From: a virus
Strand: one strand, 5' to 3'
IMG/VR virus record: IMGVR_UViG_3300042465_000917
Location: 1 to 23,822 of that record
DNA length: 23,822 nucleotides
Shown: positions 1,354 to 19,111 of the stretch, one piece after another
Numbering within the stretch: position 1 is the stretch's first letter
Layout of the letters: each line of letters begins with the position of its first letter
Notes under the pieces: generated by a model
Database searches by the model: none
Told to the model about the DNA's origin: nothing
Seen by the model: only the letters and a program-made list of their open reading frames with translations
Program-made: the position numbers and the translations under genes

Positions 1354-1539
1354 TTACAGGAACAGGTCTAGCTGCTTTGAATCTTTAAGTTGGGATTCAT
1401 CAGGGGGCGCCATCACAGTCAAACGGCGTAGCACTTCCAGTTGCCACTCCTTGGGCAAGCCTGTGTCCAACTCCATGAGTTCTGCGCTAAAGCGGATCAG
1501 CTCTTGCGTGGTGAGGGATCGAGGTTGTATTCCGTACAT
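1354..1539 (-). CDS. Small protein ending in a beta-clamp-binding-like motif
   Basis: This 61-residue protein has no recognised domain. Its C-terminus reads KQLDLFL, and residues 56-60 (QLDLF) match the bacterial sliding-clamp-binding consensus QL(S/D)LF. The ATG at 1539 is preferred over the in-frame ATG at 1551 because GGAG lies 6 nt before it; the longer form would add four residues. The start lies inside the end of the helix-turn-helix gene (43-nt overlap, different frame), so the two are probably translationally coupled. Clamp binding is inferred from the motif only. The long overlap makes the gene somewhat less certain than its neighbours. Confidence 0.6.
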   Translation of the reverse strand: MYGIQPRSLTTQELIRFSAELMELDTGLPKEWQLEVLRRLTVMAPPDESQLKDSKQLDLFL

Positions 1540-1790
1540 ATTTTTCTCCATGCCTCGTCTGCTGAATGCGAGGTCTTCATTATGTGAGTTAAGAATTCGA
1601 CGCGACTGCGGTAGGCCACAAACACTTCCGTGCCTGTAAACCAGTTGTAGACAGTCTGTCGAGAGACGCCGAGAGCATAGGCAATCTTCGTGACCGGAAA
1701 GTCATGGTGGATCGCCCAACGCCCAAGCTGGTTGCCCAGAGACTTGGGAGTCTTTGCTACTTCGTCAATGATTTTTTGAGAGTAAGCCAT
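1497..1790 (-). CDS. Helix-turn-helix DNA-binding protein (XRE/Cro-like)
   Basis: This 97-residue protein has a clear helix-turn-helix at about residues 32-51 (PVTKIAYALGVSRQTVYNWF), where the second helix SRQTVYNW is a typical recognition helix. The preceding LGNQLGRWAIHH fits helix 1 of a Cro/XRE-like fold. It probably regulates phage transcription; no operator could be assigned. I see no Shine-Dalgarno sequence before the ATG at 1790, unlike nearly all other genes here. It also follows a 139-nt gap, so it may have its own promoter or a leaderless start. I found no convincing -10/-35 pair in that gap. Confidence 0.7.
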   Translation of the reverse strand: MAYSQKIIDEVAKTPKSLGNQLGRWAIHHDFPVTKIAYALGVSRQTVYNWFTGTEVFVAYRSRVEFLTHIMKTSHSADEAWRKICTEYNLDPSPRKS

Positions 1791-8972: not shown

Positions 8973-9150
8973 TTTTTAAGTTCCTACTTATTACTCCGTT
9001 GGCCCAGCATCGTGCGCAGTGCCATTTGGTATCGCTCAGTTGAATCCCGCCCTCTGGTGGCTTCGATTCATTGCACCGAGCGCACTCTTTGTACTTGTGC
9101 ACATGCTGTACGCCGCCAATAAATAATTGCCGCTTAACAAACCCACTCAT
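8959..9150 (-). CDS. Small zinc-ribbon protein
   Basis: This 63-residue protein has two CxxC knuckles separated by about 18 residues (CARC ... CARC, residues about 23-48), giving a single Cys4 zinc ribbon. The N-terminus and C-terminus are basic. The fold would suit nucleic-acid or protein binding; nothing more specific can be said. The ATG at 9150 overlaps the TGA of the previous gene (ATGA), indicating coupled translation, and its own Shine-Dalgarno is weak. Confidence 0.65.
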   Translation of the reverse strand: MSGFVKRQLFIGGVQHVHKYKECARCNESKPPEGGIQLSDTKWHCARCWANGVISRNLKNAKT

Positions 9151-9338
9151 GTCTTCATGTCCCTCACATACGTGGCAAAGCTGTGGGCTGTGTCACCAAA
9201 AGCAATGCGCATGGCATCGAACTCCAGCGCTACCTCTTCAAGCACAGCGTTGCGCACGAGAGGGTCTGGCCTTATATACATTTCGGGCTTGCCAAAGACG
9301 TTGTCGAAGTCTTCTTTGTTGAAAATTGTGTTGCTCAT
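9147..9338 (-). CDS. Hypothetical protein
   Basis: This is a 63-residue acidic, mostly helical protein, not recognised. The ATG at 9338 has GGAG about 8-9 nt upstream. Both ends overlap neighbours by 4 nt (ATGA at 9335-9338 and 9147-9150), so it lies inside a translationally coupled string. It has no cysteines, membrane segment or catalytic motif. Confidence 0.65.
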   Translation of the reverse strand: MSNTIFNKEDFDNVFGKPEMYIRPDPLVRNAVLEEVALEFDAMRIAFGDTAHSFATYVRDMKT

Positions 9339-9661
9339 GTGTTCATCTCCAGTTCGTTAATTTGGTCAATTATCCATTGGCAATCTTTGCGCAGGGCTTC
9401 AAAACGTGGCGTGTCTTTTTGCTGAATCTTTCCTCCAGCGTTGAACATTTCGTACGTGTCGTTGTAAACATCTTTAAGTTTTACATTGATCTTTATAGAC
9501 ACTTCTGTTTGCAAAGGCCAAAGATGTATCAAAGTCTCAATCGCCTCTTCAAACTCTTGCCCGCATTCGTTTGACGCGTACAGGTAGAAGACAAAGTCGC
9601 CTTGTTCGTTAACCTCACCCGAGTGCGGGTGCTCGTCTACTTCAAGTTCTATGGGTTTCAT
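9335..9661 (-). CDS. Hypothetical acidic protein
   Basis: This is a 108-residue protein, not recognised. A beta-rich N-terminal half (GDFVFYLYAS, EVSIKINVKL) is followed by a C-terminal helix (RFEALRKDCQWIIDQINELE). The ATG at 9661 is chosen over the in-frame TTG at 9673 because GGAGG lies 5-6 nt before it and it begins one base after the upstream stop. The gene is compact, and its stop overlaps the next start. Confidence 0.68.
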   Translation of the reverse strand: MKPIELEVDEHPHSGEVNEQGDFVFYLYASNECGQEFEEAIETLIHLWPLQTEVSIKINVKLKDVYNDTYEMFNAGGKIQQKDTPRFEALRKDCQWIIDQINELEMNT

Positions 9662-9662
9662 A

Positions 9663-10325
9663 TCAACCTCCAAACATTTGCTTCAAGTGTACATACAACT
9701 CGTGCGCCTGATACACAGTCATATCTGACAAAATATCCTGCGGTGTTTTATTACGCACAAGCTTTGTGAGAAATGCGCGTCTGTCTGTTTCAACAGTCCC
9801 GCCCATGGAAAAAGCAGCGGAGGCATCCAATGCAGCTTGGCTAGGCTCAGCCTCCAGCTTCTCGCGTAGCAACGCACCGATGCCTGTCACGGCTTTCTTT
9901 TCGTACTTGCGCTTGGGTGTGGCGTCTTTATCTTTGTTCATAGCTTTAAGTGTTTTGATCGGGCGGTACTCGTCAATGTCTGCGTAGTGCAGGCCGTTGG
10001 TTTCGTGAACCATTTTGTTACGGCGCATCTGCGCAATAAGGCTAGAGACTGAGCCGCCCCCAAACCCTTCGTGCTCAAGGTCTTGAATGATCTCCTTGCG
10101 TGTGGAGCCGGGGTTGTTCTTGATGTAGTCGAAGGTCACGCGTGACACATTGTTGGTGACGTTGAAAGTTTTCTTGGCCATGGGAATTCCTTGAGAAGGT
10201 GTAGATAAAGAGTTGTTGATAGTAGTGTTGACAGTAGGAGGAGGGGGAACTTGTTCCCCGTCGTCATCCCACTCCTGTAAGGTGCGGGTTAGTGCGTTTT
10301 TAAGGGCAGTTTGAATGTCAGGCAT
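9663..10325 (-). CDS. Winged-helix-like protein carrying a palindrome in its N-terminal linker
   Basis: This is a 220-residue protein. Residues 61-115 form a probable winged helix-turn-helix: FDYIKNNPGSTRKEIIQDLE, then SVSSLIAQMRRNKMV and a wing-like HETNGLHYAD. A Lys-rich linker (130-145) and a helical C-terminus follow. DNA binding is likely; the target is unknown. The first 48 residues are low complexity (VPPPPTVNTTINNSLST) and contain GEQVP (23-27), encoded by one copy of the dispersed palindrome. The ATG at 10325 has AGGAGG 8 nt upstream. An internal ATG at 10181 with AGGA before it could make a shorter form that starts at the folded domain. Confidence 0.72.
   Translation of the reverse strand: MPDIQTALKNALTRTLQEWDDDGEQVPPPPTVNTTINNSLSTPSQGIPMAKKTFNVTNNVSRVTFDYIKNNPGSTRKEIIQDLEHEGFGGGSVSSLIAQMRRNKMVHETNGLHYADIDEYRPIKTLKAMNKDKDATPKRKYEKKAVTGIGALLREKLEAEPSQAALDASAAFSMGGTVETDRRAFLTKLVRNKTPQDILSDMTVYQAHELYVHLKQMFGG
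10244..10259. repeat. Dispersed 16-bp palindrome inside the winged-helix gene
   Basis: GGGGAAC-TT-GTTCCCC on the plus strand; encodes GEQVP at residues 23-27 of the 9663-10325 product, within a low-complexity linker before a Pro run. It is the leftmost copy in the window. Confidence 0.85.
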
Positions 10326-10536
10326 TTGAGGTTCCTCCTGTTATAAGCATGACGATAACGATGAAAGCAATAAGCCCAATGGACTGTACTGTTGCGAGCG
10401 TAAGCTCGGACATACCCTGCTTGTCGCCAAGCAGTACGCCTTGTATCCATTCGGACTCAGGCGTACATTCAGGGGGTGGTGGGGTATAGGTCAGGCCGAT
10501 CTTGACTTTACCCGTGTTGTAGGGTGGGTGGTTCAA
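10318..10536 (-). CDS. Small single-pass membrane protein (TTG start)
   Basis: This is a 72-residue protein. Residues about 48-67 (ATVQSIGLIAFIVIVMLITG) are a clear transmembrane helix close to the C-terminus, while the first 45 residues are Pro-rich and soluble (YTPPPPECTPESEW). The TTG at 10536 is the only start with a ribosome site, and it is a strong one: AAGGAG six bases upstream. An internal ATG at residue 42 would leave little but the membrane helix. It directly follows another tiny membrane protein gene (10583-10675). Function unknown; membrane tethering, superinfection exclusion or a lysis role are all possible. Confidence 0.62.
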   Translation of the reverse strand: MNHPPYNTGKVKIGLTYTPPPPECTPESEWIQGVLLGDKQGMSELTLATVQSIGLIAFIVIVMLITGGTSNA

Positions 10537-10582
10537 TATTTTCTCCTTGAGTGAATATTATTTGTCCAAGAGTAGACAGAAG

Positions 10583-10675
10583 TCAATAGGGTCTCCAGTA
10601 TAAAAGATCCAGTATTAGTACAATCACCGATAACAAAAGTACTACTCTTTCGAATTTCTCCCAGCGTGTCATCAT
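10583..10675 (-). CDS. 30-residue membrane microprotein
   Basis: This very short gene has strong local support. AAAGGAG lies before the ATG at 10675, and that ATG overlaps the TGA of the preceding gene (ATGA), the same coupling used throughout this operon. The 30-residue product has a short basic amphipathic start (MMTRWEKFER), a hydrophobic stretch VVLLLSVIVLILDLLY long enough to span a membrane, and the end WRPY. A second ATG at 10672 would remove one residue. It is followed by a second membrane protein gene 46 nt downstream. Function unknown. Confidence 0.6.
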   Translation of the reverse strand: MMTRWEKFERVVLLLSVIVLILDLLYWRPY

Positions 10676-11469
10676 TGTTGTTTCTCCTTTGTTTGTGTAA
10701 CTGTGTAGCTGTGATAAATATAGCCAAACTCAATCTTGCCCACTAGGGCTTCGGGTATCCAAGTTCTGCGTCCATCCTTGTACTGCCTGAAATGTCCGCG
10801 TCTCTTGTGTTGTCGTGGGCTGTTACGCCCATTGCCTGTCGCCACGATGTCGTGGTCTTCAGGTCTAGCAGTCACGTCGATAACTTTCCACTCGAACAAG
10901 GGGTGCTTGCCTTTGCGGATACGCTTACTGTTGGATGGCGATGCGATGGGTTTGTACACACGGGTTCTCTCGTGCATATCCATAGCCTTACGCATGTACT
11001 CGGCATAAAGATGGCTGACCATTGAACTCCATATTTGAAACACATAACGCTCGGGAGTAAGCCCTTCGTCGGAAGGCGCCATCCCTCTGTCTCTCAAGGC
11101 TTGTATATAGCTTTCGGCTGTCTCGTTTGGGGGCATGGAAACAAACTGCTCTTTTCCTGTACTGCGTATCGCCCCTGCGTCGCCGCTCCTGCCACGCAAG
11201 CGAACAATCAATTCACCGACATTGCGCTCAATAGTTATGCCGAGCGGATGAACAGCCGTGGTTGGTTGCCGAACTATGCCCATCTGCTCAAAGGGTAGCA
11301 TCAGATCAGCGGGGTCAGAGGTAAACAAATCAGGTATAGCATCCATAACCTTATCGAATTTAGCGTCTATCATGGAATCAAAATTCCCAAGATCAACCCA
11401 TGTGTAGTCCATTGGATCGCCTTCGGTATAAACGTCCTCTTTGACCACCTTCATTATGTTAGGCGTCAT
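10672..11469 (-). CDS. Conserved phage protein with basic C-terminal motif
   Basis: This is a 265-residue protein of unknown function. The N-terminal 180 residues look globular and mainly helical. The C-terminal part contains SPRQHKRRGHFRQYKDGRRT followed by WIPEALVG, a His/Arg-rich motif (P-R-x-H-x-R-R-G-H-x-R) that I recall at the C-terminus of many phage hypothetical proteins and which probably contacts nucleic acid. The ATG at 11469 has AAGGAG about 8 nt upstream and overlaps the previous gene by 11 nt. The stop is coupled to the microprotein gene. Confidence 0.68.
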   Translation of the reverse strand: MTPNIMKVVKEDVYTEGDPMDYTWVDLGNFDSMIDAKFDKVMDAIPDLFTSDPADLMLPFEQMGIVRQPTTAVHPLGITIERNVGELIVRLRGRSGDAGAIRSTGKEQFVSMPPNETAESYIQALRDRGMAPSDEGLTPERYVFQIWSSMVSHLYAEYMRKAMDMHERTRVYKPIASPSNSKRIRKGKHPLFEWKVIDVTARPEDHDIVATGNGRNSPRQHKRRGHFRQYKDGRRTWIPEALVGKIEFGYIYHSYTVTQTKEKQQ

Positions 11470-11761
11470 CTTCGTGCTCCTTGTCTACATAGGCAGGATT
11501 GCCTGTTTGATCTCGATACTCTTTGGCATCTTTCTCAGCGTCATGCTCGTTGTCAAACACACCAAGTACTGTGTGGTTGTGGTTTCTAACTACGTATTGC
11601 ACTTTGTCAATCAACTCGGTGTCGTATGTCTGACCTTCCCCGACACGGGCTTTGGTAATGTCAAACTCATCGAACGCCTTGCTTGCAGCATCGGCACTGC
11701 TGTCGGCTTCGACCTCTACTGTCTGCCAGTAGGACATAACTACTTGTACTCTGTACTTCAT
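11459..11761 (-). CDS. Hypothetical small acidic protein
   Basis: This 100-residue protein begins MKYRVQVVMSYWQTVEVEAD and ends in the acidic tail KEHEDDA; it is not recognised. The frame is open further upstream, but ATG 11761 with AAAGGAG seven bases before it is clearly the start; the longer frame would run through a terminator hairpin and the end of the amidotransferase gene. It is the first gene after that terminator. Confidence 0.7.
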   Translation of the reverse strand: MKYRVQVVMSYWQTVEVEADSSADAASKAFDEFDITKARVGEGQTYDTELIDKVQYVVRNHNHTVLGVFDNEHDAEKDAKEYRDQTGNPAYVDKEHEDDA

Positions 11762-11779
11762 CTTCTCTCTCCTTTGGTT

Positions 11780-11805
11780 TAAAAATGCGGGGGTGTTACC
11801 CCCGC
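11780..11805 (-). terminator. Intrinsic terminator after the amidotransferase gene
   Basis: Read on the minus strand, an 8-bp GC-rich stem GCGGGGGT/ACCCCCGC with a 3-nt loop (11787-11805) is followed by A and five T. It lies 7 nt after the amidotransferase stop codon. The next gene starts only 18 nt after the T-run, so either termination is partial or antitermination operates. Confidence 0.75.
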
Positions 11806-11811
11806 TACACA

Positions 11812-12918
11812 TCAGGTCAACAGTGCAGGCAATGTTGACTTGAACGATACAGGCTTGCGTACATCCCATTGCAGGTAGTAACACATGACCTCGGCAATTA
11901 GGCTGACTGCACCAGACGACTTGGTCGCCGTGCTGATAAGACCAGACGCATCGCCCTCTATAAACATATCGTAGATACCCTGCTCGGCAAAGCACAAGTC
12001 ATCACGATGTGTGTAACTAAGTGGCTCGGGTGCGAGCAGGTGCAGTACAGTAGTCAACGTGTAAGCAGGCATCTGGTCAAGCCATATCTCCATCGTCTCT
12101 ACGTCTGCCTCAGTAAGCGCAGTAGCAAGATCATCAAGCTCAGGGCGAATGAAACCATCTTCGTCATCGGGAAAGTCAAACGCTGTCTCGTCATAGTTGG
12201 CGCTGTGTGCGCTGACACTGCGGGGATAGATGCCAAAGCTTGCGTTGTAGTCATACATCTCGTCGTACTCGTCATCCATGTAGCTACCATAGGCGCTGGC
12301 GTACTTGTATGACTTGAGTGTCGCACTCTTGTAGCTAGGGATCAGGCGTGATGGAGTCCAAGCATAGGTATTGCTAAACCACATATCGTCGTGCTCGATA
12401 CCCTGCTCGAAGTTGACGTGTTGCATACGACCCTCGCCATTCATGAACACGAAGCGATTGTTGCCGATGAACTCCTCCATCATAGACACGAAGCCCGTGT
12501 CATACACAAGGTCAGGTGCAGACGACACAGCGGTATGCAAGTAGTCCTTGATGAAGTGCCATGTATCTGACTTGGTCTTGTCAGCAGCATTGCCTGTATG
12601 CAGTACGCCGTTGTGCATCATGGCGATGAAGCCAGGAATCACATCATAGGGATGGCAGTTGAGCATGTCGGTCTTGCCGTGTGTAGTCCAGCGGAAGTGA
12701 ATGGCAATCTCACGATCGTCTTGCGGTAGGCGCTGAATGAATGCAGTAGCATCGCCAATGTTCTTGGGTAAAGTCTTGGTGACCTTGAGTCCCTTGGCTG
12801 AACCATACATAAAGCCAATGCCGTCAGGATTGGCTGTAAAGATGTCGCTCAGTAGCCCGTGTGTATTGAGCAAGGTTGAACGAACTTTGGCAGACTGACC
12901 AGTAATAATAAGACACAT
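11812..12918 (-). CDS. Class II glutamine amidotransferase (Ntn hydrolase)
   Basis: This is a 368-residue protein. Residues 1-200 match the class II glutaminase domain: Cys2 becomes the N-terminal nucleophile after Met removal (MCLII), FRWTTHG (75-81) matches the TRWATHG glutamine-binding loop, NCHPYD (87-92) matches NAHPH, and MMHNGVL (101-107) supplies the oxyanion Asn103-Gly104. Such domains release ammonia from glutamine or act as related amidohydrolases. The C-terminal 170 residues are acidic and Tyr-rich and are not a known synthetase partner such as the asparagine synthetase, PRPP or sugar-isomerase domains. It lies directly downstream of the amidoligase-like gene, suggesting a joint pathway. 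ATG 12918 has AAGGAA upstream. Confidence 0.87.
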   Translation of the reverse strand: MCLIITGQSAKVRSTLLNTHGLLSDIFTANPDGIGFMYGSAKGLKVTKTLPKNIGDATAFIQRLPQDDREIAIHFRWTTHGKTDMLNCHPYDVIPGFIAMMHNGVLHTGNAADKTKSDTWHFIKDYLHTAVSSAPDLVYDTGFVSMMEEFIGNNRFVFMNGEGRMQHVNFEQGIEHDDMWFSNTYAWTPSRLIPSYKSATLKSYKYASAYGSYMDDEYDEMYDYNASFGIYPRSVSAHSANYDETAFDFPDDEDGFIRPELDDLATALTEADVETMEIWLDQMPAYTLTTVLHLLAPEPLSYTHRDDLCFAEQGIYDMFIEGDASGLISTATKSSGAVSLIAEVMCYYLQWDVRKPVSFKSTLPALLT

Positions 12919-12936
12919 AATAAATTTCCTTGATGT

Positions 12937-12960
12937 AAAAGAATGGGGAGCAAGCTCCCC
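12937..12960 (-). terminator. Terminator-like hairpin, covarying copy of the dispersed palindrome
   Basis: GGGGAGC-AA-GCTCCCC on the plus strand (12945-12960). Relative to the seven exact family copies it carries paired changes (A to G and T to C) that keep the 7-bp stem. On the minus strand it is followed by ATTCTTTT, 17 nt after the amidoligase stop. The amidotransferase start codon is less than 20 nt beyond the T-run, so it may attenuate rather than end transcription. Confidence 0.65.
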
Positions 12961-12977
12961 GTTTGGTTGTTGATGAA

Positions 12978-15068
12978 TTAAACAGGCTGTACTTCAGACA
13001 CTCTGTATGAAGACTGCGCAAGCGAAGCAGCAAACTCCTCGTTCATAAGAACCCACAGTTGACCGATACGCATATAGACAACATCGCTACTGCTGATGGT
13101 TTCTAAGTCGCCCCCGTATGGGAAGTACACATACTCAGAGCCTGCGTATGTAGCGAAGCGGAAGTACAGACTGTGACGATTGACCCACGTTCTCAACGTC
13201 TCGGCCTCGTTGTCGTAGGGTATGTGCACTGGGTAGTCTCTGTCATGCCTATCCTCCGTATCCGCAGGTTGCCAAGGCGCAGGAGGCACAGCGTCAGTGC
13301 AAGTGTCCATCGCTGGCGCTATGACTGTCGGTGTGGATGTGTGTACATTGCGTACGCCATACCACTTAGTCAGCGCAGGGTACTGACCCGCCACAGTCTT
13401 GAGCCACTTGACGAACGATGTGCCGTTGAGATCACGCCACGATGCGACACGACAGAACATGACAGACGCATGAGTGAACTCGATCTGTGCAAGCAGACGT
13501 TCCTTCTTGAGCGAAGCACGGAAGATGCGAAGCTCGACAGTGTTGTACTTGCCGTTGTAGCTGTTGTCCATGCTAAGACCAAGACGCTGTGCCTCACGAC
13601 CACCAAGGTTGCACATATTGACCATGCGATAGCGCTCACCAGACTTACCCTTGACCGCCTTCTTGGGGTTGGTAAGGATAGACTGATGCTCTGCTGCACA
13701 GTAGCTACGGGCTTGGTCATCGACAGATGGGTGACGACCTGCAATCTTGCGAATGAAGTCAACGTTGCCAGAGCTATTGATGAACATCAAGAACTTACCG
13801 AGCGTCAACTGCGTGAAGGCACGAGAGTCAATGTGTACATGCATACCGCACTTGCCTGTGTTCCATGCACGATAGGCTGGGTCGATAATCCAGTTCTTGA
13901 ACTTGTCGATGTGAAGCGCAAGACCTTGCGGTGAAGTCACGACTTCGAAGCCATTGTGTGGAAGCGAGCCGTCACTCTTGATGATGCAGTAGGCGTTACC
14001 TAAACGGCTACGCACAGACTCAGCAGACTCGTTGGTATCGTGATCGCCAGACGTCATCTCAAGCTCGATGCCCATCGTGAACTCACCGAAGTGAGAAGAC
14101 GTGATGCCAGAGGGGTAGTCAAGAACACGAAGCACATTGGTAGAGTACGACATGATTGGCTGATCGCTGTCGTCATCGTCGTCGTCATCGTCATCGTCAT
14201 CGGTACGCTCATACGAGTAGTACAAGTCATCACTCTCGCTGTAGTACGCATCGTCACGAGGCCAGTACTCGTCTTGATCCTCGACATACACAGCGTTATC
14301 GTCGTAGCACGAGTCGCACCATGTATCGTTACGCACGCTGTGTGTGTTGTCGCTGTCCTCATAGTGACCGCAGTCGCAGTGCGTAATGTTCATGTCACCC
14401 ATCGCATCAATCACAGTGAACGCACTATCGATATGGCTTTCGGCCTCGCTGTAACGACCAGACAACTCGAAGAACTTAGAGCGAAGCTCATCGTTGGTGA
14501 TGGACTCATCGCCTGCCTTGGCACGAGCAACGAGCCTGCCGAAGTCTAAGTAATGCTTGCGAGCAATCTTGAAGTAGTCGTTGCTGTGATCGTAGTACCA
14601 AGAACCCTTGAACCTAGCGCAAGGCACAGGCGGTGACTGGTTTACATTCGGGTCATGCTTCTTGGCATAAGACTCGACGATTGTGTCGACACGAGTAGAC
14701 AACAGGTTACGAGCAAACCGTGGCAAATCCGCAGTGCTCGTGGGTGTCAACAACCTGCGCATCATCTGATGCATATCGTAGCGATCACGGCTCTCGACAA
14801 CAGCCTCTTTGTAAGTCATAGCACGAGGTGCAAAAGCACCCTCACCCTTGACACGATAGCGTGAGGTACGAGTCCACGCACATAGGTTCTCTACTGTGAT
14901 CAGATCGAGAGGTGCAATACCCGCATCCATGTGCAGCACATCCGACCAGACAAGACGCCTACGGGATGCGTTGTACACCATATACCGCTTGTTGAGTGAC
15001 ACGATGTAGATCACCTGATCTAGTGAGTCAACAAAATCTTCCATCACGAATCTAGTTATTTGAAACAT
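12978..15068 (-). CDS. Amidoligase-like protein (glutamine-synthetase-fold COOH-NH2 ligase) with zinc ribbon
   Basis: This is a 696-residue protein. Residues about 325-540 carry the pattern of the Amidoligase_2-type family: GIELE (333-337), SDGSLPHNGFEVVTSP (365-380), CGMHVHID (407-414) and NTVELRIFRAS (509-519), the expected metal/ATP-binding Glu, Asp and His residues. Such enzymes form amide bonds between a carboxylate and an amine. The N-terminal 220 residues are unassigned. A CDC...CDSC zinc ribbon (231-254) and Tyr/Asp-rich repeats follow, then eleven consecutive Asp (290-300). The substrate could be host peptide, peptidoglycan or protein; this is inference. Start ATG 15068 has AAGGAG 6 nt upstream. 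The amidotransferase gene follows immediately. Confidence 0.78.
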   Translation of the reverse strand: MFQITRFVMEDFVDSLDQVIYIVSLNKRYMVYNASRRRLVWSDVLHMDAGIAPLDLITVENLCAWTRTSRYRVKGEGAFAPRAMTYKEAVVESRDRYDMHQMMRRLLTPTSTADLPRFARNLLSTRVDTIVESYAKKHDPNVNQSPPVPCARFKGSWYYDHSNDYFKIARKHYLDFGRLVARAKAGDESITNDELRSKFFELSGRYSEAESHIDSAFTVIDAMGDMNITHCDCGHYEDSDNTHSVRNDTWCDSCYDDNAVYVEDQDEYWPRDDAYYSESDDLYYSYERTDDDDDDDDDDDSDQPIMSYSTNVLRVLDYPSGITSSHFGEFTMGIELEMTSGDHDTNESAESVRSRLGNAYCIIKSDGSLPHNGFEVVTSPQGLALHIDKFKNWIIDPAYRAWNTGKCGMHVHIDSRAFTQLTLGKFLMFINSSGNVDFIRKIAGRHPSVDDQARSYCAAEHQSILTNPKKAVKGKSGERYRMVNMCNLGGREAQRLGLSMDNSYNGKYNTVELRIFRASLKKERLLAQIEFTHASVMFCRVASWRDLNGTSFVKWLKTVAGQYPALTKWYGVRNVHTSTPTVIAPAMDTCTDAVPPAPWQPADTEDRHDRDYPVHIPYDNEAETLRTWVNRHSLYFRFATYAGSEYVYFPYGGDLETISSSDVVYMRIGQLWVLMNEEFAASLAQSSYRVSEVQPV

Positions 15069-15088
15069 ACGTTTCTCCTTGATGTATA

Positions 15089-15110
15089 AAAAATGGGGAA
15101 CAAGTTCCCC
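15089..15110 (-). terminator. Terminator-like hairpin (dispersed palindrome copy)
   Basis: GGGGAAC-AA-GTTCCCC on the plus strand (15095-15110). On the minus strand the 7-bp stem is followed by ATTTTTTAT, 19 nt after the stop of the 15130-15381 gene. The amidoligase start is only about 20 nt further on. The surrounding ~38 bp closely repeat the junction at 12927-12963. Confidence 0.68.
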
Positions 15111-15129
15111 GTTGTACTAACACACGATC

Positions 15130-15381
15130 TCAACAGACCGCAGGAACCTCCACTTCATCTATTGGGTTAAAGAAATTGATCGTGAAGTCACGATGCTTAC
15201 CTAAGATGCGCTCACCTGCCTCGAAGATATAGAACAGGTTGTGTCTGTCTATCAGGCTGTCGAGCACAGCGTCACGCATAGAGTCGGATAACCCTTGCGG
15301 CATGACTAAACAACGATGCTCGAATGGTTTGTTGTCATCGTTCCAATACCCCTCGATACAAATTAACTTAGCTGTACTCAT
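15130..15381 (-). CDS. Hypothetical protein
   Basis: This 83-residue protein begins MSTAKLICIEGYWNDDNKPF and is not recognised. It is a predicted alpha/beta mix without membrane segments. The start at ATG 15381 is set by AAGGAG 7 nt upstream; the open frame continues further upstream but overlaps the previous gene completely. The ATG overlaps the TGA of that gene (ATGA). Confidence 0.68.
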   Translation of the reverse strand: MSTAKLICIEGYWNDDNKPFEHRCLVMPQGLSDSMRDAVLDSLIDRHNLFYIFEAGERILGKHRDFTINFFNPIDEVEVPAVC

Positions 15382-15566
15382 ACTGTTTCTCCTTCTGGTT
15401 GATAATCTTCGCAACGATCGGCTACTGTCCGTAGATGTGCATCCATCGCTTGGTTCTCCTCTGTGCTCATAGACACACGCTGAACTAACTGCCCTTTGAA
15501 ACAAGCAAGCCCTACGTTCCAATTGCTTGTGTGCGTTGAGAGTGCGCAGTTCCTACATGATTTCAT
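15378..15566 (-). CDS. Small cysteine-containing protein, possible zinc binder
   Basis: This is a 62-residue protein. C4 and C7 (CRNC), C22 (ACFKG) and C52 (RCEDYQP) form a C-x2-C-x14-C-x29-C set that resembles small phage proteins with one zinc site ending in a C-x2-Y-x-P motif. Function unknown. The ATG at 15566 has AGGAG 6 nt upstream and overlaps the preceding TAA by one base (TAATG). Confidence 0.66.
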   Translation of the reverse strand: MKSCRNCALSTHTSNWNVGLACFKGQLVQRVSMSTEENQAMDAHLRTVADRCEDYQPEGETV

Positions 15567-15790
15567 TACTTACTCCTGTTGTTGATTGCTTCTACTACCT
15601 CATCAGCACACGCACGCCACGATTCCTCGCTTATGAATGTGTTGTCCTTTGACCAAGGCGGTGACACTTTGGTTTGTTCTGCGTACTTAGCAATAGCCTC
15701 GATGATGAACGCTTGCATTAGTACGCCCTGCTGTGAGTGCGTCATCAGCCCGTTGATAAGCTCTACGTTCGTTACGTGTTTAGATTTCAT
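15566..15790 (-). CDS. Hypothetical protein
   Basis: This 74-residue helical protein begins MKSKHVTNVELINGLMTHSQ and is not recognised. ATG 15790 is chosen because AAGGAG lies 7 nt upstream; the in-frame extension to 15853 has no ribosome site and would overlap the previous gene by more than 70 nt. It overlaps that gene's end by 11 nt. Confidence 0.68.
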   Translation of the reverse strand: MKSKHVTNVELINGLMTHSQQGVLMQAFIIEAIAKYAEQTKVSPPWSKDNTFISEESWRACADEVVEAINNRSK

Positions 15791-16073
15791 AGTTTTCTCC
15801 TTGGTTAAATGGTTTGGCTTGCATTGCTTCTTGCAGGCAGTCGATGAACTCAATCTCGTTATAACTAACGTCTAAGCCGTCAAGTATTCTGTCTAAGTAG
15901 TTATGCTCAGGCGAACCTCTGTACTCGTCTGGCGTAAGCCAGCGCTTAAAGTCCCAACACCAAGTCCAATCTCTGCTGGCTGTGAAGTAGAACTTGAGCG
16001 TGAACCGCCCAATACGGATGTCCGCCTCTGGTGCGTTTTGTATCCACGCACGAGCTTGTTCTTCATATGTCAT
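15780..16073 (-). CDS. Hypothetical protein
   Basis: This 97-residue protein is rich in aromatic residues (FYFTASRDWTWCWDFKRWL) with an acidic C-terminal half; it is not recognised. ATG 16073 has AAGGAG 7 nt upstream. It is the first gene after a short non-coding spacer that contains one copy of the dispersed palindrome. Confidence 0.68.
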   Translation of the reverse strand: MTYEEQARAWIQNAPEADIRIGRFTLKFYFTASRDWTWCWDFKRWLTPDEYRGSPEHNYLDRILDGLDVSYNEIEFIDCLQEAMQAKPFNQGENYEI

Positions 16074-16142
16074 TTGCTTTCTCCTTAAAAATACAAGGCA
16101 CTAACGGGATGGTGCTCGGCGTAGCCCACACGCCGAACGCTT

Positions 16143-16158
16143 GGGGAACTTGTTCCCC
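16143..16158. repeat. Dispersed 16-bp palindrome, intergenic copy
   Basis: GGGGAAC-TT-GTTCCCC on the plus strand, 28 nt after the stop of the 16187-16894 gene in the transcript direction. No T-run follows on the minus strand, so it is not a standard intrinsic terminator. Confidence 0.85.
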
Positions 16159-16186
16159 GAAAGATGTTGATAGTTGATGATAGTAG

Positions 16187-16894
16187 TCAGTCCTCCCCTA
16201 AGCTGAGTTTTGTCCATGTGGCAGGCACAGCTTCGTTCTTATCAAGCGTGTCAATAATCTTGAGGGCTTTGCGCATCTGCGCTAGTTTGGCTGTGCGTGC
16301 GTCTGTTGGTTTGATGGTGGCTTGGCGTTCGAGGGTTTCCATCTCCTTCCTTGTCTTGGTCAATAATCTCACCTTGGCTGTTTCATGTTGGTGGGGCAGC
16401 ATCGTGCGTTGGAAGGGTGTCTTGCGTTTGCCCCTAGGTACAACAGGCACGGCATCGAACAGCAAAGAGATTTTGTCCTTGACCCGTGCGGGTATCCAGT
16501 CAGTCCAATGCTCGCCATCGTTGGGTAGCCCCTTGTCACGGGCTATCTGTATGGGTGTGTGGTCAAGAGCCTTGTATGGGGCGTCTAGCATGGCTACCAG
16601 CTTCTCCATGATGCGTATGTACTCGCTGAACGCTAGCTTGCGTTCATTCTGGGGAACAAGTTCCCCGCCGTATCTCATGCCCACACGGGCGTTGTTGATC
16701 TCGTAGCGCAGGGGTGCTAATACCTTGTCCCATTCGGCTTTGCGTTGGGTGCGTGTGATGCGTGAGACACGTAGCGTTTCTTTCAACGCAGAGACTTCCA
16801 TTTTTATTCTTTCGATCTCGGCTGGGTGTAGCTTGCGCTCGGTTAGGCGGTTGTGTAGGTCGTTGGCTGAGAGTTTGAGGTAGGTTTCGTACAT
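16187..16894 (-). CDS. Hypothetical basic helical protein with embedded palindrome
   Basis: This is a 235-residue, strongly charged, Lys/Arg-rich, mostly helical protein; no domain is recognised. Two helical segments (about 15-60 and 190-225) look coiled-coil-like. Residues 77-81 (GELVP) are encoded by one copy of the dispersed palindrome (16651-16666), in a probable loop between YGG and QNE. ATG 16894 is preferred; GGAG lies about 11 nt upstream, a rather long spacing. The in-frame extension to 16939 would run across the GGACA/TGTCC inverted repeat and has no better ribosome site. Confidence 0.62.
   Translation of the reverse strand: MYETYLKLSANDLHNRLTERKLHPAEIERIKMEVSALKETLRVSRITRTQRKAEWDKVLAPLRYEINNARVGMRYGGELVPQNERKLAFSEYIRIMEKLVAMLDAPYKALDHTPIQIARDKGLPNDGEHWTDWIPARVKDKISLLFDAVPVVPRGKRKTPFQRTMLPHQHETAKVRLLTKTRKEMETLERQATIKPTDARTAKLAQMRKALKIIDTLDKNEAVPATWTKLSLGED
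16651..16666. repeat. Dispersed 16-bp palindrome, copy inside a gene
   Basis: GGGGAAC-AA-GTTCCCC on the plus strand; on the coding strand it reads GGG GAA CTT GTT CCC, giving Gly-Glu-Leu-Val-Pro without disturbing the frame. Confidence 0.85.
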
Positions 16895-17258
16895 GAGATT
16901 ATTTACTCCAAAAGTGAGGGTCGGACAAATGTCCAACACTACAGGGCTGTGACTAAGATGCGTGTAGGTTGTGAAGCCGCACCAGTACTAGCTTAGCACG
17001 AAAAGTGTGCGATGTATCTATCTTATTTCTGAACGGCTATAGCCAAACAAAAAAAGAAAGTGTCTCAAAGAAAAAGAATGAGCACCCCCTAATACATACA
17101 TCTATATATATAAATATATATTAAATAGATAGATAGATAGGACAGTTTTTGCGGAACGCTAGCGTGGATGCGGCTTGCGGGGTTACACGGAACTTAGTTC
17201 ACGGGTTGTAGTGTCGGACATTTGGCTGGGTCTTGTTTTTTGCCTCAATAATCTCGCA
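16895..17258. other. Gene-free, A+T-rich, palindrome-dense region; candidate origin or control region
   Basis: No convincing gene lies in these 364 bases. They hold an inverted repeat GGACA-AA-TGTCC (16923-16934), perfect palindromes GGCTATAGCC (17035-17044) and ACGCTAGCGT (17156-17165), the inverted repeat GAACT-T-AGTTC (17190-17200), an almost pure A+T tract (17102-17127) running into four ATAG units (17125-17140), and a purine-rich tract at 17041-17090. A further 12-bp palindrome, GCACTATAGTGC (17256-17267), straddles the right edge. An A+T tract, short tandem repeats and clustered palindromes are typical of replication origins or multi-operator regions, but no known initiator box is recognised and no clear sigma70 promoter was found. 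Confidence 0.5.
17125..17140. repeat. Tetranucleotide repeat (ATAG)4
   Basis: Four perfect ATAG units abut the right end of the A+T tract. Short iterated units beside an A+T tract can be initiator sites or simply slippage products. Confidence 0.85.
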
Positions 17259-17507
17259 CTATAGTGCAGATCGGGGAACTTGTTCCCCAAATGGTAGGTT
17301 TAACTGCTTAGGTTGTGTCTCAAGCCAGTCAAAGAAGGCGTCATCTGTGCTGAATACACGCCCTCGTTCAGCTAGGTTCTTGCTAAAGACATAGACAACG
17401 TAGTTGCTGCCCCCATTGGGGTAATGGTATTGCAGGTGATACTTACTTGCGCCCATTTGTACTACGCCTACTTCTTTGACTCTGTACTGATTGAATAGTT
17501 GGTACAT
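17259..17507 (-). CDS. Small protein with clamp-binding-like peptide and palindrome-encoded tail
   Basis: This is an 82-residue protein starting MYQLFNQYRVKEVGVVQMGA; no domain is recognised. Residues 68-73, QLNLPF, fit the six-residue form of the bacterial sliding-clamp-binding motif (QLxLxF/L, compare QLSLPL in Hda). The last nine residues (GEQVPRSAL) begin exactly at a palindrome copy (17273-17288), so the protein may once have ended near the motif. ATG 17507 has AAGGAG 9 nt upstream; the longer frame to 17558 lacks a ribosome site. Clamp binding is inferred from the motif only. Confidence 0.66.
   Translation of the reverse strand: MYQLFNQYRVKEVGVVQMGASKYHLQYHYPNGGSNYVVYVFSKNLAERGRVFSTDDAFFDWLETQPKQLNLPFGEQVPRSAL
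17273..17288. repeat. Dispersed 16-bp palindrome at the end of a gene
   Basis: GGGGAAC-TT-GTTCCCC on the plus strand. The coding strand reads GGG GAA CAA GTT CCC (GEQVP), directly after the QLNLPF codons and four codons before the stop. Confidence 0.85.
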
Positions 17508-17589
17508 GATTATTGACTCCTTGAGATTATTGATTGGACAGGAAAAGAAACACCGCAAGAGACTCGCCCTTGCGGTGATCTGGATAATC

Positions 17590-17605
17590 GGGGAACAAGT
17601 TCCCC
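17590..17605. repeat. Dispersed 16-bp palindrome, intergenic copy
   Basis: GGGGAAC-AA-GTTCCCC on the plus strand, 8 nt after the stop of the 17614-18060 gene. Only a short GATTATCC follows on the minus strand, so it is at best a weak terminator. Confidence 0.85.
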
Positions 17606-17613
17606 AAGATTAT

Positions 17614-18060
17614 TTACAATGGCAATGTTGCCAAGTAAGCACGCAACAACTCGACTTGCTTCTTGAGTGTGTCAGCAGGGAAAGATGCCAAGGCATTGTC
17701 ACAAGCCTTCACCTGCTCAGATGTGAACTTGACCACAGTCTTCTTGCCCGATGTGCGACCAGTCCTACTGATGTGGTCACGGAACTTTGCACCACCAGTA
17801 TTGACAGCCTTCTCCTGACTGGCTGTGCGTTTTGTGCGAGTCTTGCTACAAATAATCTCGGCTTCCTTCTGTGTGCAATCTAGGCGACCGATCACATAGT
17901 TCAGCACCCAGTCAGATCGCCACTCGCTTTGCTTACCTGCATCGAGAGTCAGATACTCTTTGTGCCATGCAAGGCTCGCCTCTAGTGTGATGCGATCAGT
18001 TGCACCTACACCTCTAGCGAACTGTTGATACGTTACTGTGATTGCGTTTGCTTTAGTCAT
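17614..18060 (-). CDS. Hypothetical basic protein, first gene of the leftward module
   Basis: This 148-residue protein begins MTKANAITVTYQQFARGVGA; no domain is recognised. It is helical with a basic middle (CSKTRTKRTASQ, HISRTGRTSGKKTVVKF) that could bind nucleic acid. ATG 18060 has AAGGAG 7 nt upstream. The open frame extends to 18231, but that part reads through the palindrome in another phase and lacks a ribosome site. As the gene closest to the divergent region it is probably among the first transcribed. Confidence 0.68.
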   Translation of the reverse strand: MTKANAITVTYQQFARGVGATDRITLEASLAWHKEYLTLDAGKQSEWRSDWVLNYVIGRLDCTQKEAEIICSKTRTKRTASQEKAVNTGGAKFRDHISRTGRTSGKKTVVKFTSEQVKACDNALASFPADTLKKQVELLRAYLATLPL

Positions 18061-18093
18061 TTGATTCTCCTTGAATTGACTATTGGTTAAAGC

Positions 18094-18109
18094 GGGGAAC
18101 AAGTTCCCC
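18094..18109. repeat. Dispersed 16-bp palindrome upstream of the leftward module
   Basis: GGGGAAC-AA-GTTCCCC on the plus strand, 34 nt upstream of the 18060 start codon. It is the rightmost copy; in a leftward transcript it would lie in the 5' leader. Confidence 0.85.
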
Positions 18110-18131
18110 ACATCGGCTAGGCTTGTCCCAA

Positions 18132-18178
18132 CCGATACCTCTATGTTACGTATGGGGGTCATTTTGGGGCTGTATCGG
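18132..18178. promoter_or_regulatory. Possible operator: inverted repeat CCGATAC/GTATCGG
   Basis: Two 7-bp inverted half-sites (18132-18138 and 18172-18178) are separated by 33 bp, and a third related ATCGG lies at 18112. They lie between the two transcription units. A regulator such as the HTH protein at 1497-1790 could bind here, but nothing in the sequence links them. Confidence 0.3.
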
Positions 18179-18237
18179 CTCTCTGAGGGGGCGTTTTTGG
18201 CGTGGCGTTGACCCCACCCATCCCCCACCAACCCTAT

Positions 18238-18266
18238 TTGAGGTCACCGTCACAGTCCTATATAAA
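18238..18266 (+). promoter_or_regulatory. Sigma70-like promoter for the rightward (terminase/portal) module
   Basis: TTGAGG (-35, 18238-18243), a 17-bp spacer and TATAAA (-10, 18261-18266). Transcription would start near 18273, giving a leader of about 180 nt before the small terminase start. It is the best promoter match seen in the window. Confidence 0.62.
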
Positions 18267-18387
18267 CACTGTTCCACACCCGCAATTCCAATTTTCAAAA
18301 ATTACGATCTAAAAACCAAACACCCCACCCCCCAAAAATTTTAAAAAATTTCCAAGGATCAATGTCAAACGTTGGACAATACCAAAT

Positions 18388-18417
18388 AAAAAAAGCCCCG
18401 ACCTTGCGAGCCGGGGC
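18388..18417 (-). terminator. Intrinsic-terminator-like hairpin facing leftward
   Basis: On the minus strand, GCCCCG...CGGGGC (6-bp stem, 11-nt loop) is followed by seven T, a textbook intrinsic terminator. No leftward gene lies to its right in this window, so it would stop antisense transcripts coming out of the late module. On the plus strand the hairpin has no T-run and would be part of the late mRNA leader. Confidence 0.65.
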
Positions 18418-18451
18418 AAAGATGGCAACTGGAAACCATCAAGGAGAAGCA

Positions 18452-19111
18452 ATGACTTGCGCCATCACCGAAAAGAAGTGTACACTAACACCAACGAGGC
18501 AACAAGTACGACGCCAGTACTACCCCTACGCAATGCTAGAACATTTGATTAACGGCGAGTTTGAACCAAACGTGGTCGACATGACTGAGGCTACGCCGTT
18601 GCCTTTTGCTGAAGCAGCGCCAGCAGACATCATTGACGCGCAAGTACAAACAGCCAACTGGCTAAAAGAGTTAGAGCTAGACGACGATGAGGCAGAATCC
18701 AAGGCAGACGCGCAAGCCGCACGTCAATCGTTTGCAAGCCTAGTCACCGGCCAGCCACCCCAGAACACACAGCAAGCGCTTGCTAACATTAAGGCTCCTG
18801 CTGCAGTGCAGCATTTAGTCGGGATGCTTACAGCCTACGATTGGGCGTTTGTTGAGCAGGCCAAGGAGCTACGGGGTTTTGCTGTGGCTAAAATCTTAGA
18901 TGAAGTCGAACATCCAGACGCCCGCATCAGACTCAAGGCGCTAGACATGTTGGGCAAGGTCACGGAAGTGGCCTTGTTCACGGAACGCATTGAGGTCAAG
19001 AAGACTCAGATGTCTGATGTTGAGCTAGAGACACGAATTAAAGAGAAGCTCAACAGGTTCATGGGTGTGATTGATGTGATTGACGTTACAGAAGATAAAG
19101 ATGAAGCCTGA
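18452..19111 (+). CDS. Terminase small subunit (probable)
   Basis: This is a 219-residue protein. The C-terminal half has the helical pattern seen in many small terminases of this phage type: FAVAKILDEVEHPDARIRLK, then ALDMLGKVTEVALFTERIEV and VELETRIKEKLNRF. The role is recognition of the packaging site and recruitment of the large subunit. It directly precedes the large terminase gene and overlaps it by 11 nt. ATG 18452 is chosen because AAGGAG lies 6-7 nt upstream. An in-frame ATG at 18362 with AAGGA close upstream would add 30 residues encoded across the hairpin, so it is less likely. The N-terminal DNA-binding part is not obvious. Confidence 0.75.
   Translation: MTCAITEKKCTLTPTRQQVRRQYYPYAMLEHLINGEFEPNVVDMTEATPLPFAEAAPADIIDAQVQTANWLKELELDDDEAESKADAQAARQSFASLVTGQPPQNTQQALANIKAPAAVQHLVGMLTAYDWAFVEQAKELRGFAVAKILDEVEHPDARIRLKALDMLGKVTEVALFTERIEVKKTQMSDVELETRIKEKLNRFMGVIDVIDVTEDKDEA

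Follow-up and report, generated by a model that had tools for sequence, protein, structure and literature searches.

What reaction is carried out when a phage encodes, side by side, an amidoligase and a class II glutamine amidotransferase (GATase)-like protein, and on which target would it act? Phage modules with these two enzymes have been annotated for more than 10 years without a known product. The pair considered here lies in a stretch of 23,822 nucleotides (hereafter the window), positions 1–23,822 of the IMG/VR record IMGVR_UViG_3300042465_000917, which represents part of the genome of an uncultured tailed phage. In the original prediction, made from the sequence letters, the two genes were proposed as a possible system for forming or trimming amide bonds. 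The enzyme assignments and the linkage of the genes stand, being supported by profiles, residues, folds and adjacency, whereas a reading as a new system does not, as amidoligase and glutamine amidotransferase form an already described phage gene pair, found alone or within larger cassettes. On balance, the locus is probably a two-gene amide-chemistry module in which a ligase is combined with gamma-glutamyl trimming, in a reduced cassette form whose target is left uncertain. A two-gene lineage, always adjacent and strongly selected, narrows the search to two seemingly essential enzymes in a small system. Both open reading frames are on the minus strand, exactly where they had been placed earlier, and comprise the following parts:

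12978–15068, minus strand: Amidoligase_2 family protein of 696 amino acids, recognised by its open reading frame, PF12224 and PHROG matches and conserved residues
13353–14081, minus strand: catalytic domain of the amidoligase, residues 330–572, recognised by conserved residues, identity, the ratio of nonsynonymous to synonymous substitution rates (dN/dS) and Foldseek
14307–14378, minus strand: putative zinc site C-x-H-x(15)-C-x2-C (C233, H235, C251, C254), N-terminal to the catalytic domain
11812–12918, minus strand: class II glutamine amidotransferase-like protein of 368 amino acids with a Met-Cys start, recognised by its open reading frame, GATase_4/GATase_6 matches and invariant residues
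12331–12918, minus strand: N-terminal nucleophile (Ntn) hydrolase, or glutaminase, half of the GATase-like protein, residues 1–196, recognised by Foldseek and dN/dS
11812–12330, minus strand: C-terminal half of the GATase-like protein, residues 197–368, with no recognised synthetase domain

The identity of the first gene is supported by a match to the Amidoligase_2 profile (PF12224; 25.9 bits, above the curated cut-off of 22), which is also found in 31 of 32 divergent relatives at E <= 0.01, and by matches to phrog_2443 and phrog_7469, both annotated as 'amidoligase enzyme'. The motifs listed in the original prediction, GxExE (E335, E337), DGS (366–368) followed by E375, CGxHVHxD (407–414) and ExR (512–514), are present, and within the close family all of the cited residues show little or no variation. 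E335, E337, D366-G-S, E375, H410, H412, E512 and R514 do not vary among 32 clade members. When distant phage homologues are added, in a wide alignment of the window protein with eleven others including those of phiEco32, LUZ24, RIO-1, Marvin and Laroye, E335, E337, D366, S368, E375, H410, H412, E512 and R514 are still invariant. The protein consists of a variable N-terminal region, a zinc-site module, an acidic linker, the catalytic domain and a variable C-terminal region. Mean pairwise identity in the clade is 66% in the catalytic domain versus 19% in residues 1–225, and dN/dS of the catalytic domain against relatives is 0.10–0.22. C233, H235, C251 and C254 are invariant in 32 divergent relatives, and this set is probably a zinc site.

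The predicted structure of the amidoligase (mean predicted local distance difference test score, pLDDT, 78; predicted template modelling score, pTM, 0.44) was compared with the PDB using Foldseek. The first 25 matches all belong to the glutamine synthetase (GS) superfamily, namely YbdK-type ligases and glutamine or gamma-glutamylmethylamide synthetases, although none reaches E 0.001; YbdK is the top match, with a weak score. A glutamine-synthetase-like fold is supported by this model, though not proved. The predicted catalytic fold would be shared with YbdK and glutamine synthetases at a sequence identity of 8–12%, and neither a PDB sequence search with the amidoligase (no match) nor a Pfam scan of it (no YbdK or GS family match) found this relationship.

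The second gene is best labelled class II GATase-like, because the window protein scores below the curated Pfam cut-offs (GATase_6, 13.9 bits versus 27, E 0.058; GATase_4, 11.3 versus 23). GATase_4 matches 21 of 31 of its relatives at E <= 0.05, with a best value of 5.7e-5. The key residues listed earlier, Cys2, Arg76, N87-C-H-P and N103-G104, are all present and, in the close family, vary hardly or not at all, and every family member examined begins with Met-Cys. Asp118, absent from that list, can be added: together with Cys2, Arg76, Asn103 and Gly104 it is invariant across ten phage proteins including distant homologues. We take Cys2, Arg76, Asn103-Gly104 and Asp118 to be the counterparts of Cys1, Arg73, Asn98-Gly99 and Asp123 of GlmS.

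The predicted structure of the GATase-like protein, of moderate confidence (pLDDT 66), has its best matches in the glutaminase domain of GlmS (E 2e-5), in EgtC (E 1.9e-4) and in PurF, and its 24 PDB matches at E <= 0.001 are all of the class II GATase or EgtC type; a PDB sequence search gave weak GlmS/PurF matches only. EgtC, the gamma-glutamyl hydrolase of ergothioneine synthesis, resembles the window protein in its Ntn fold and N-terminal Cys (TM score 0.52 by target length). However, an additional C-terminal half is present in the window protein, and the partners of EgtC are EgtA and EgtB, not an Amidoligase_2 protein. As had been noted before, a known synthetase domain is lacking: no Pfam match was obtained in the C-terminal half, either in the window protein or in its relatives. 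In the model, pLDDT falls below 50 at residues 184–218 and 228–254, and the chain is helical from about residue 261. Against relatives, dN/dS is 0.05–0.13 in the catalytic half and 0.18–0.25 in the C-terminal half. The pair is under strong purifying selection.

Are the two genes regularly found together? They are adjacent, on one strand and with the amidoligase first, in 99 of 99 fetched loci that hold both (some contigs being represented more than once), while 19 of 20 single-gene loci stop at a contig edge where the partner would lie. In distant IMG/VR relatives of the window phage, flanking genes vary and the pair is kept. Adjacency, claimed originally for this one locus, extends to unrelated phages: beyond the window lineage the genes stand side by side in Methylophilales phage MEP402, ctgrD200, Marvin, Laroye and an Acinetobacter phage, and also in the larger cassettes of LUZ24 and phiEco32. 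In every locus examined, GATase and amidoligase are separate polypeptides. The pair also occurs on contigs filed under betaproteobacteria, one from an Oxalobacteraceae metagenome-assembled genome and two from Pelistega indica; together with the Methylophilales phages, these hint at betaproteobacterial hosts. The original prediction would have been contradicted by a structure prediction without a glutamine-synthetase-like fold or by the lack of a conserved neighbourhood; what was found is a set of GS-superfamily fold matches, weak as they are, and a conserved neighbourhood.

The two proteins do not evolve at the same pace everywhere. In locus L103 the GATase (partial, 107 amino acids) is 98% identical to that of the window and the amidoligase 65%, and in locus L047 the values are 89% and 54%. 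In these loci the amidoligase changes much faster than the GATase, above all outside the catalytic domain, and recombination has perhaps contributed to this divergence.

Several known systems can be compared with the window pair. The OM43 phages MEP401 and MEP402 and more than 30 metagenomic relatives carry an amidoligase/GATase pair (PMC10580990). There, as in the window, two adjacent genes follow in the same order, with an amidoligase of 548 amino acids and then a GATase of 291 amino acids, and hhalign probabilities against the window proteins are 99.5% and 99.3%, respectively. The MEP phages differ in sequence (identity about 29% and 30%) and in genome backbone; their GATase has a shorter C-terminal half, and the zinc motif seen in the window is not conserved there. 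Marvin (gp105-gp106) and Laroye (gp98-gp99) likewise have adjacent genes in the same order with the same catalytic residues, but they are actinobacteriophages and infect Gram-positive hosts. The pair in Marvin is already known, as cited in PMC10580990.

Larger cassettes bring the comparison further. A peptidoglycan-modification cassette was reportedly proposed by Iyer et al. in 2009, the source to which the cited papers refer, and by Hardies et al. in 2013. The cassettes of phiEco32, LUZ24, RIO-1 and relatives have been called 'peptidoglycan modification' cassettes (PMC5498523, PMC3890496). In LUZ24 (gp18-gp19) and phiEco32 (gp84-gp83) an amidoligase is encoded immediately upstream of a class II GATase with the same catalytic residues as in the window, although the proteins have little similarity in sequence (hhalign probabilities of 32% and 85%). 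The combination that marks such a cassette, Amidoligase_2 and a class II GATase in one module, is found in the window. Cassettes of the phiEco32/LUZ24 type add a COOH-NH2 ligase, a gamma-glutamyl cyclotransferase and an ATP-grasp enzyme, none of which was found in relatives of the window phage. PF14395 (COOH-NH2 ligase) and PF06094 (GGCT/AIG2) were detected in LUZ24 and phiEco32 and in 0 of 11 related IMG/VR contigs, some of them possibly incomplete. PF08443 (RimK-type ATP-grasp) was likewise found in 0 of 11, by a less sensitive test that gave no match in LUZ24 and a weak one in phiEco32. Among the known amidoligase/GATase cassettes, that of the window lineage is a reduced form.

How might such a pair act? 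The amidoligase, with its predicted GS-like fold, would most likely activate a carboxylate with ATP and couple it to the amine of a peptide or of a small molecule, while selection or holding of the substrate would fall to its variable N-terminal part and putative zinc site. The Ntn enzyme, assuming that Met1 is removed, would use Cys2 to form a gamma-glutamyl thioester and would then either trim a gamma-glutamyl amide or, in partnership with the other protein, release ammonia for the ligase. A precedent for trimming is given by ergothioneine synthesis, where EgtA, a ligase of the same broad fold class, is combined with EgtC, a stand-alone class II GATase-like hydrolase. Trimming is favoured over pure ammonia channelling because several phages combine these genes with one for a gamma-glutamyl cyclotransferase: it is present in LUZ24, phiEco32 and RIO-1, and in Laroye it adjoins the pair (PMC5513430), thus indicating gamma-glutamyl chemistry. 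The target would probably be host-derived, with peptidoglycan peptides as the leading guess; an envelope or peptidoglycan target has been proposed for such modules (PMC5498523, PMC10580990), and the cell envelope is favoured here, although unproven.

Some observations weigh against this combination of ligase and gamma-glutamyl trimming. No cyclotransferase, COOH-NH2 ligase or RimK-type ATP-grasp partner is detectable in the window phage, and because these partner enzymes were not found, the pathway deduced from full cassettes may not carry over. In the Clostridioides difficile phage AR1086-1, the one remaining single-gene locus, a distant homologue of the amidoligase is followed by an unrelated gene, without a GATase. 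The fold-search scores of the amidoligase are also weak, with a best E of 1.9e-3 and a TM score of 0.38 by target length in addition to the low pTM.

If ammonia rather than a trimmed product were the point of the second enzyme, the pair would be a glutamine-dependent amide synthetase, in which the GATase frees ammonia and passes it to the amidoligase for amidation of a carboxylate. This fits the complete glutamine site of the GATase, where Arg76, Asn103-Gly104 and Asp118 are among the residues kept, as well as the GlmS glutaminase domain as best fold match and the strict gene pairing. Peptidoglycan glutamate is amidated by MurT/GatD (PMC3267633), where the ligase is a different one and the GATase is of class I. 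However, the proteins are separate polypeptides in all loci examined and no ammonia channel is demonstrable; EgtC, a gamma-glutamyl hydrolase, fits the same fold about equally, and no synthetase domain is present in the C-terminal half. A synthetase of this kind is therefore doubtful, though it keeps a real chance of being correct. The choice of target raises a further alternative, namely that a small metabolite (gamma-glutamyl, glutathione-like or secondary) rather than the envelope is made or remodelled, which would aid infection or blunt host defence. YbdK, the top fold match, is a carboxylate-amine ligase of the gamma-glutamylcysteine ligase type, and a secondary-metabolite role has been proposed for Marvin, as cited in PMC10580990. 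Against this, no metabolic gene lies beside the pair in the window phage among the proteins scanned, and the large, fast-changing N-terminal region with its putative zinc site would rather resemble a part for macromolecule recognition, so that we regard a metabolite target as unlikely.

That same N-terminal region, together with the predicted GS-like fold and the placement of a ligase gene next to a hydrolase gene, would agree with tagging of host or phage proteins by the amidoligase in the manner of PafA, a GS-fold ligase, with the GATase-like enzyme stripping the tag; but no conserved small protein that could be the tag was identified and the fold matches are small-molecule ligases, not PafA, which leaves protein tagging quite improbable. 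The position of the pair among replication genes would agree with a part in DNA base hypermodification, in which amide-linked groups are added to the phage bases. This idea is very hard to credit, as no base-hydroxymethylating, kinase or other hypermodification gene occurs among the scanned proteins and the literature search gave no such link. Compared with these, ligation combined with gamma-glutamyl trimming of a host-derived target is the reading that we prefer.

How is the module controlled? Regulatory elements were recognised close to both genes:

15095–15110, no strand assigned: palindrome GGGGAACNNGTTCCCC, 26 nt upstream of the amidoligase start
12945–12960, no strand assigned: variant GGGGAGCAAGCTCCCC, with both arms changed and still a perfect palindrome, between the genes and 26 nt upstream of the GATase start
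11787–11805, minus strand: terminator-like hairpin directly after the GATase gene, with 8 pairs, 7 of them G-C, followed by ATTTTT

The 16-bp palindrome GGGGAACNNGTTCCCC occurs in seven copies, plus one with both arms changed in step, within window positions 10244–18109 (starts at 10244, 12945, 15095, 16143, 16651, 17273, 17590 and 18094), while 0.03 matches are expected by chance; no copy occurs in the rest of a 60-kb contig that carries the identical pair. Most relatives repeat their own version several times, with GGGGAAA, GGGGAGA, GGGGACA, GGGGTCA or GGGAGAA arms and an often variable centre. Among 28 loci, most have a copy that ends 24–38 nt ahead of the amidoligase start, and a second is often found 25–27 (or 36) nt ahead of the GATase start. 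Because the arms are identical within a genome and differ between genomes, the recurrent palindrome looks like a binding site for a phage regulator, either as a DNA operator or as an RNA hairpin. As both genes carry an upstream palindrome, common control of amidoligase and GATase is suggested, and these genome-specific elements offer a handle on the timing and mode of module expression.

As RNA, the palindromes at 15095 and 12945 would form hairpins followed by T-runs on the minus strand, and they were considered as plain terminators. This was rejected, since the module has six more copies that share these arms, of which most lack a T-run and some fall within genes, so that termination alone is insufficient. 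A 97-amino-acid helix-turn-helix protein (1497–1790, minus strand) shows weak similarity to phage transcriptional regulators and small terminase families, and is a candidate reader of the palindromes.

A much bolder picture, to which we give little credence, joins these elements: a self-sufficient minimal amide-modification system would be steered to a specific host macromolecule by its zinc-containing, fast-evolving N-terminal region and governed by a palindrome-reading regulator whose half-site differs per phage, and it could serve superinfection exclusion or counter-defence under immunity-group-specific control.

A nucleotide search with the presumed early region found no match among known phages, and the window lineage is therefore without a close deposited genome. 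The pair belongs to a minus-strand block with a family A DNA polymerase, a helicase-like protein and PD-(D/E)XK and Hjc/VRR-type nucleases. The terminase and portal genes and those related to them lie opposite, on the plus strand from position 18362. The IMG/VR contig with the identical pair (60,443 bases, 100% identity) otherwise holds structural, lysis (glycosyl hydrolase 108) or replication genes. Besides the pair, a 250-amino-acid protein (16187–16939, minus strand) and a 220-amino-acid protein (9663–10325, minus strand) are widely kept nearby across the divergent clade. In addition, terminator-like hairpins are enriched in window positions 9000–18500 (21 versus 7.7 +/- 2.8 in shuffles), and several of them lie directly 3' of single genes of the minus-strand block.

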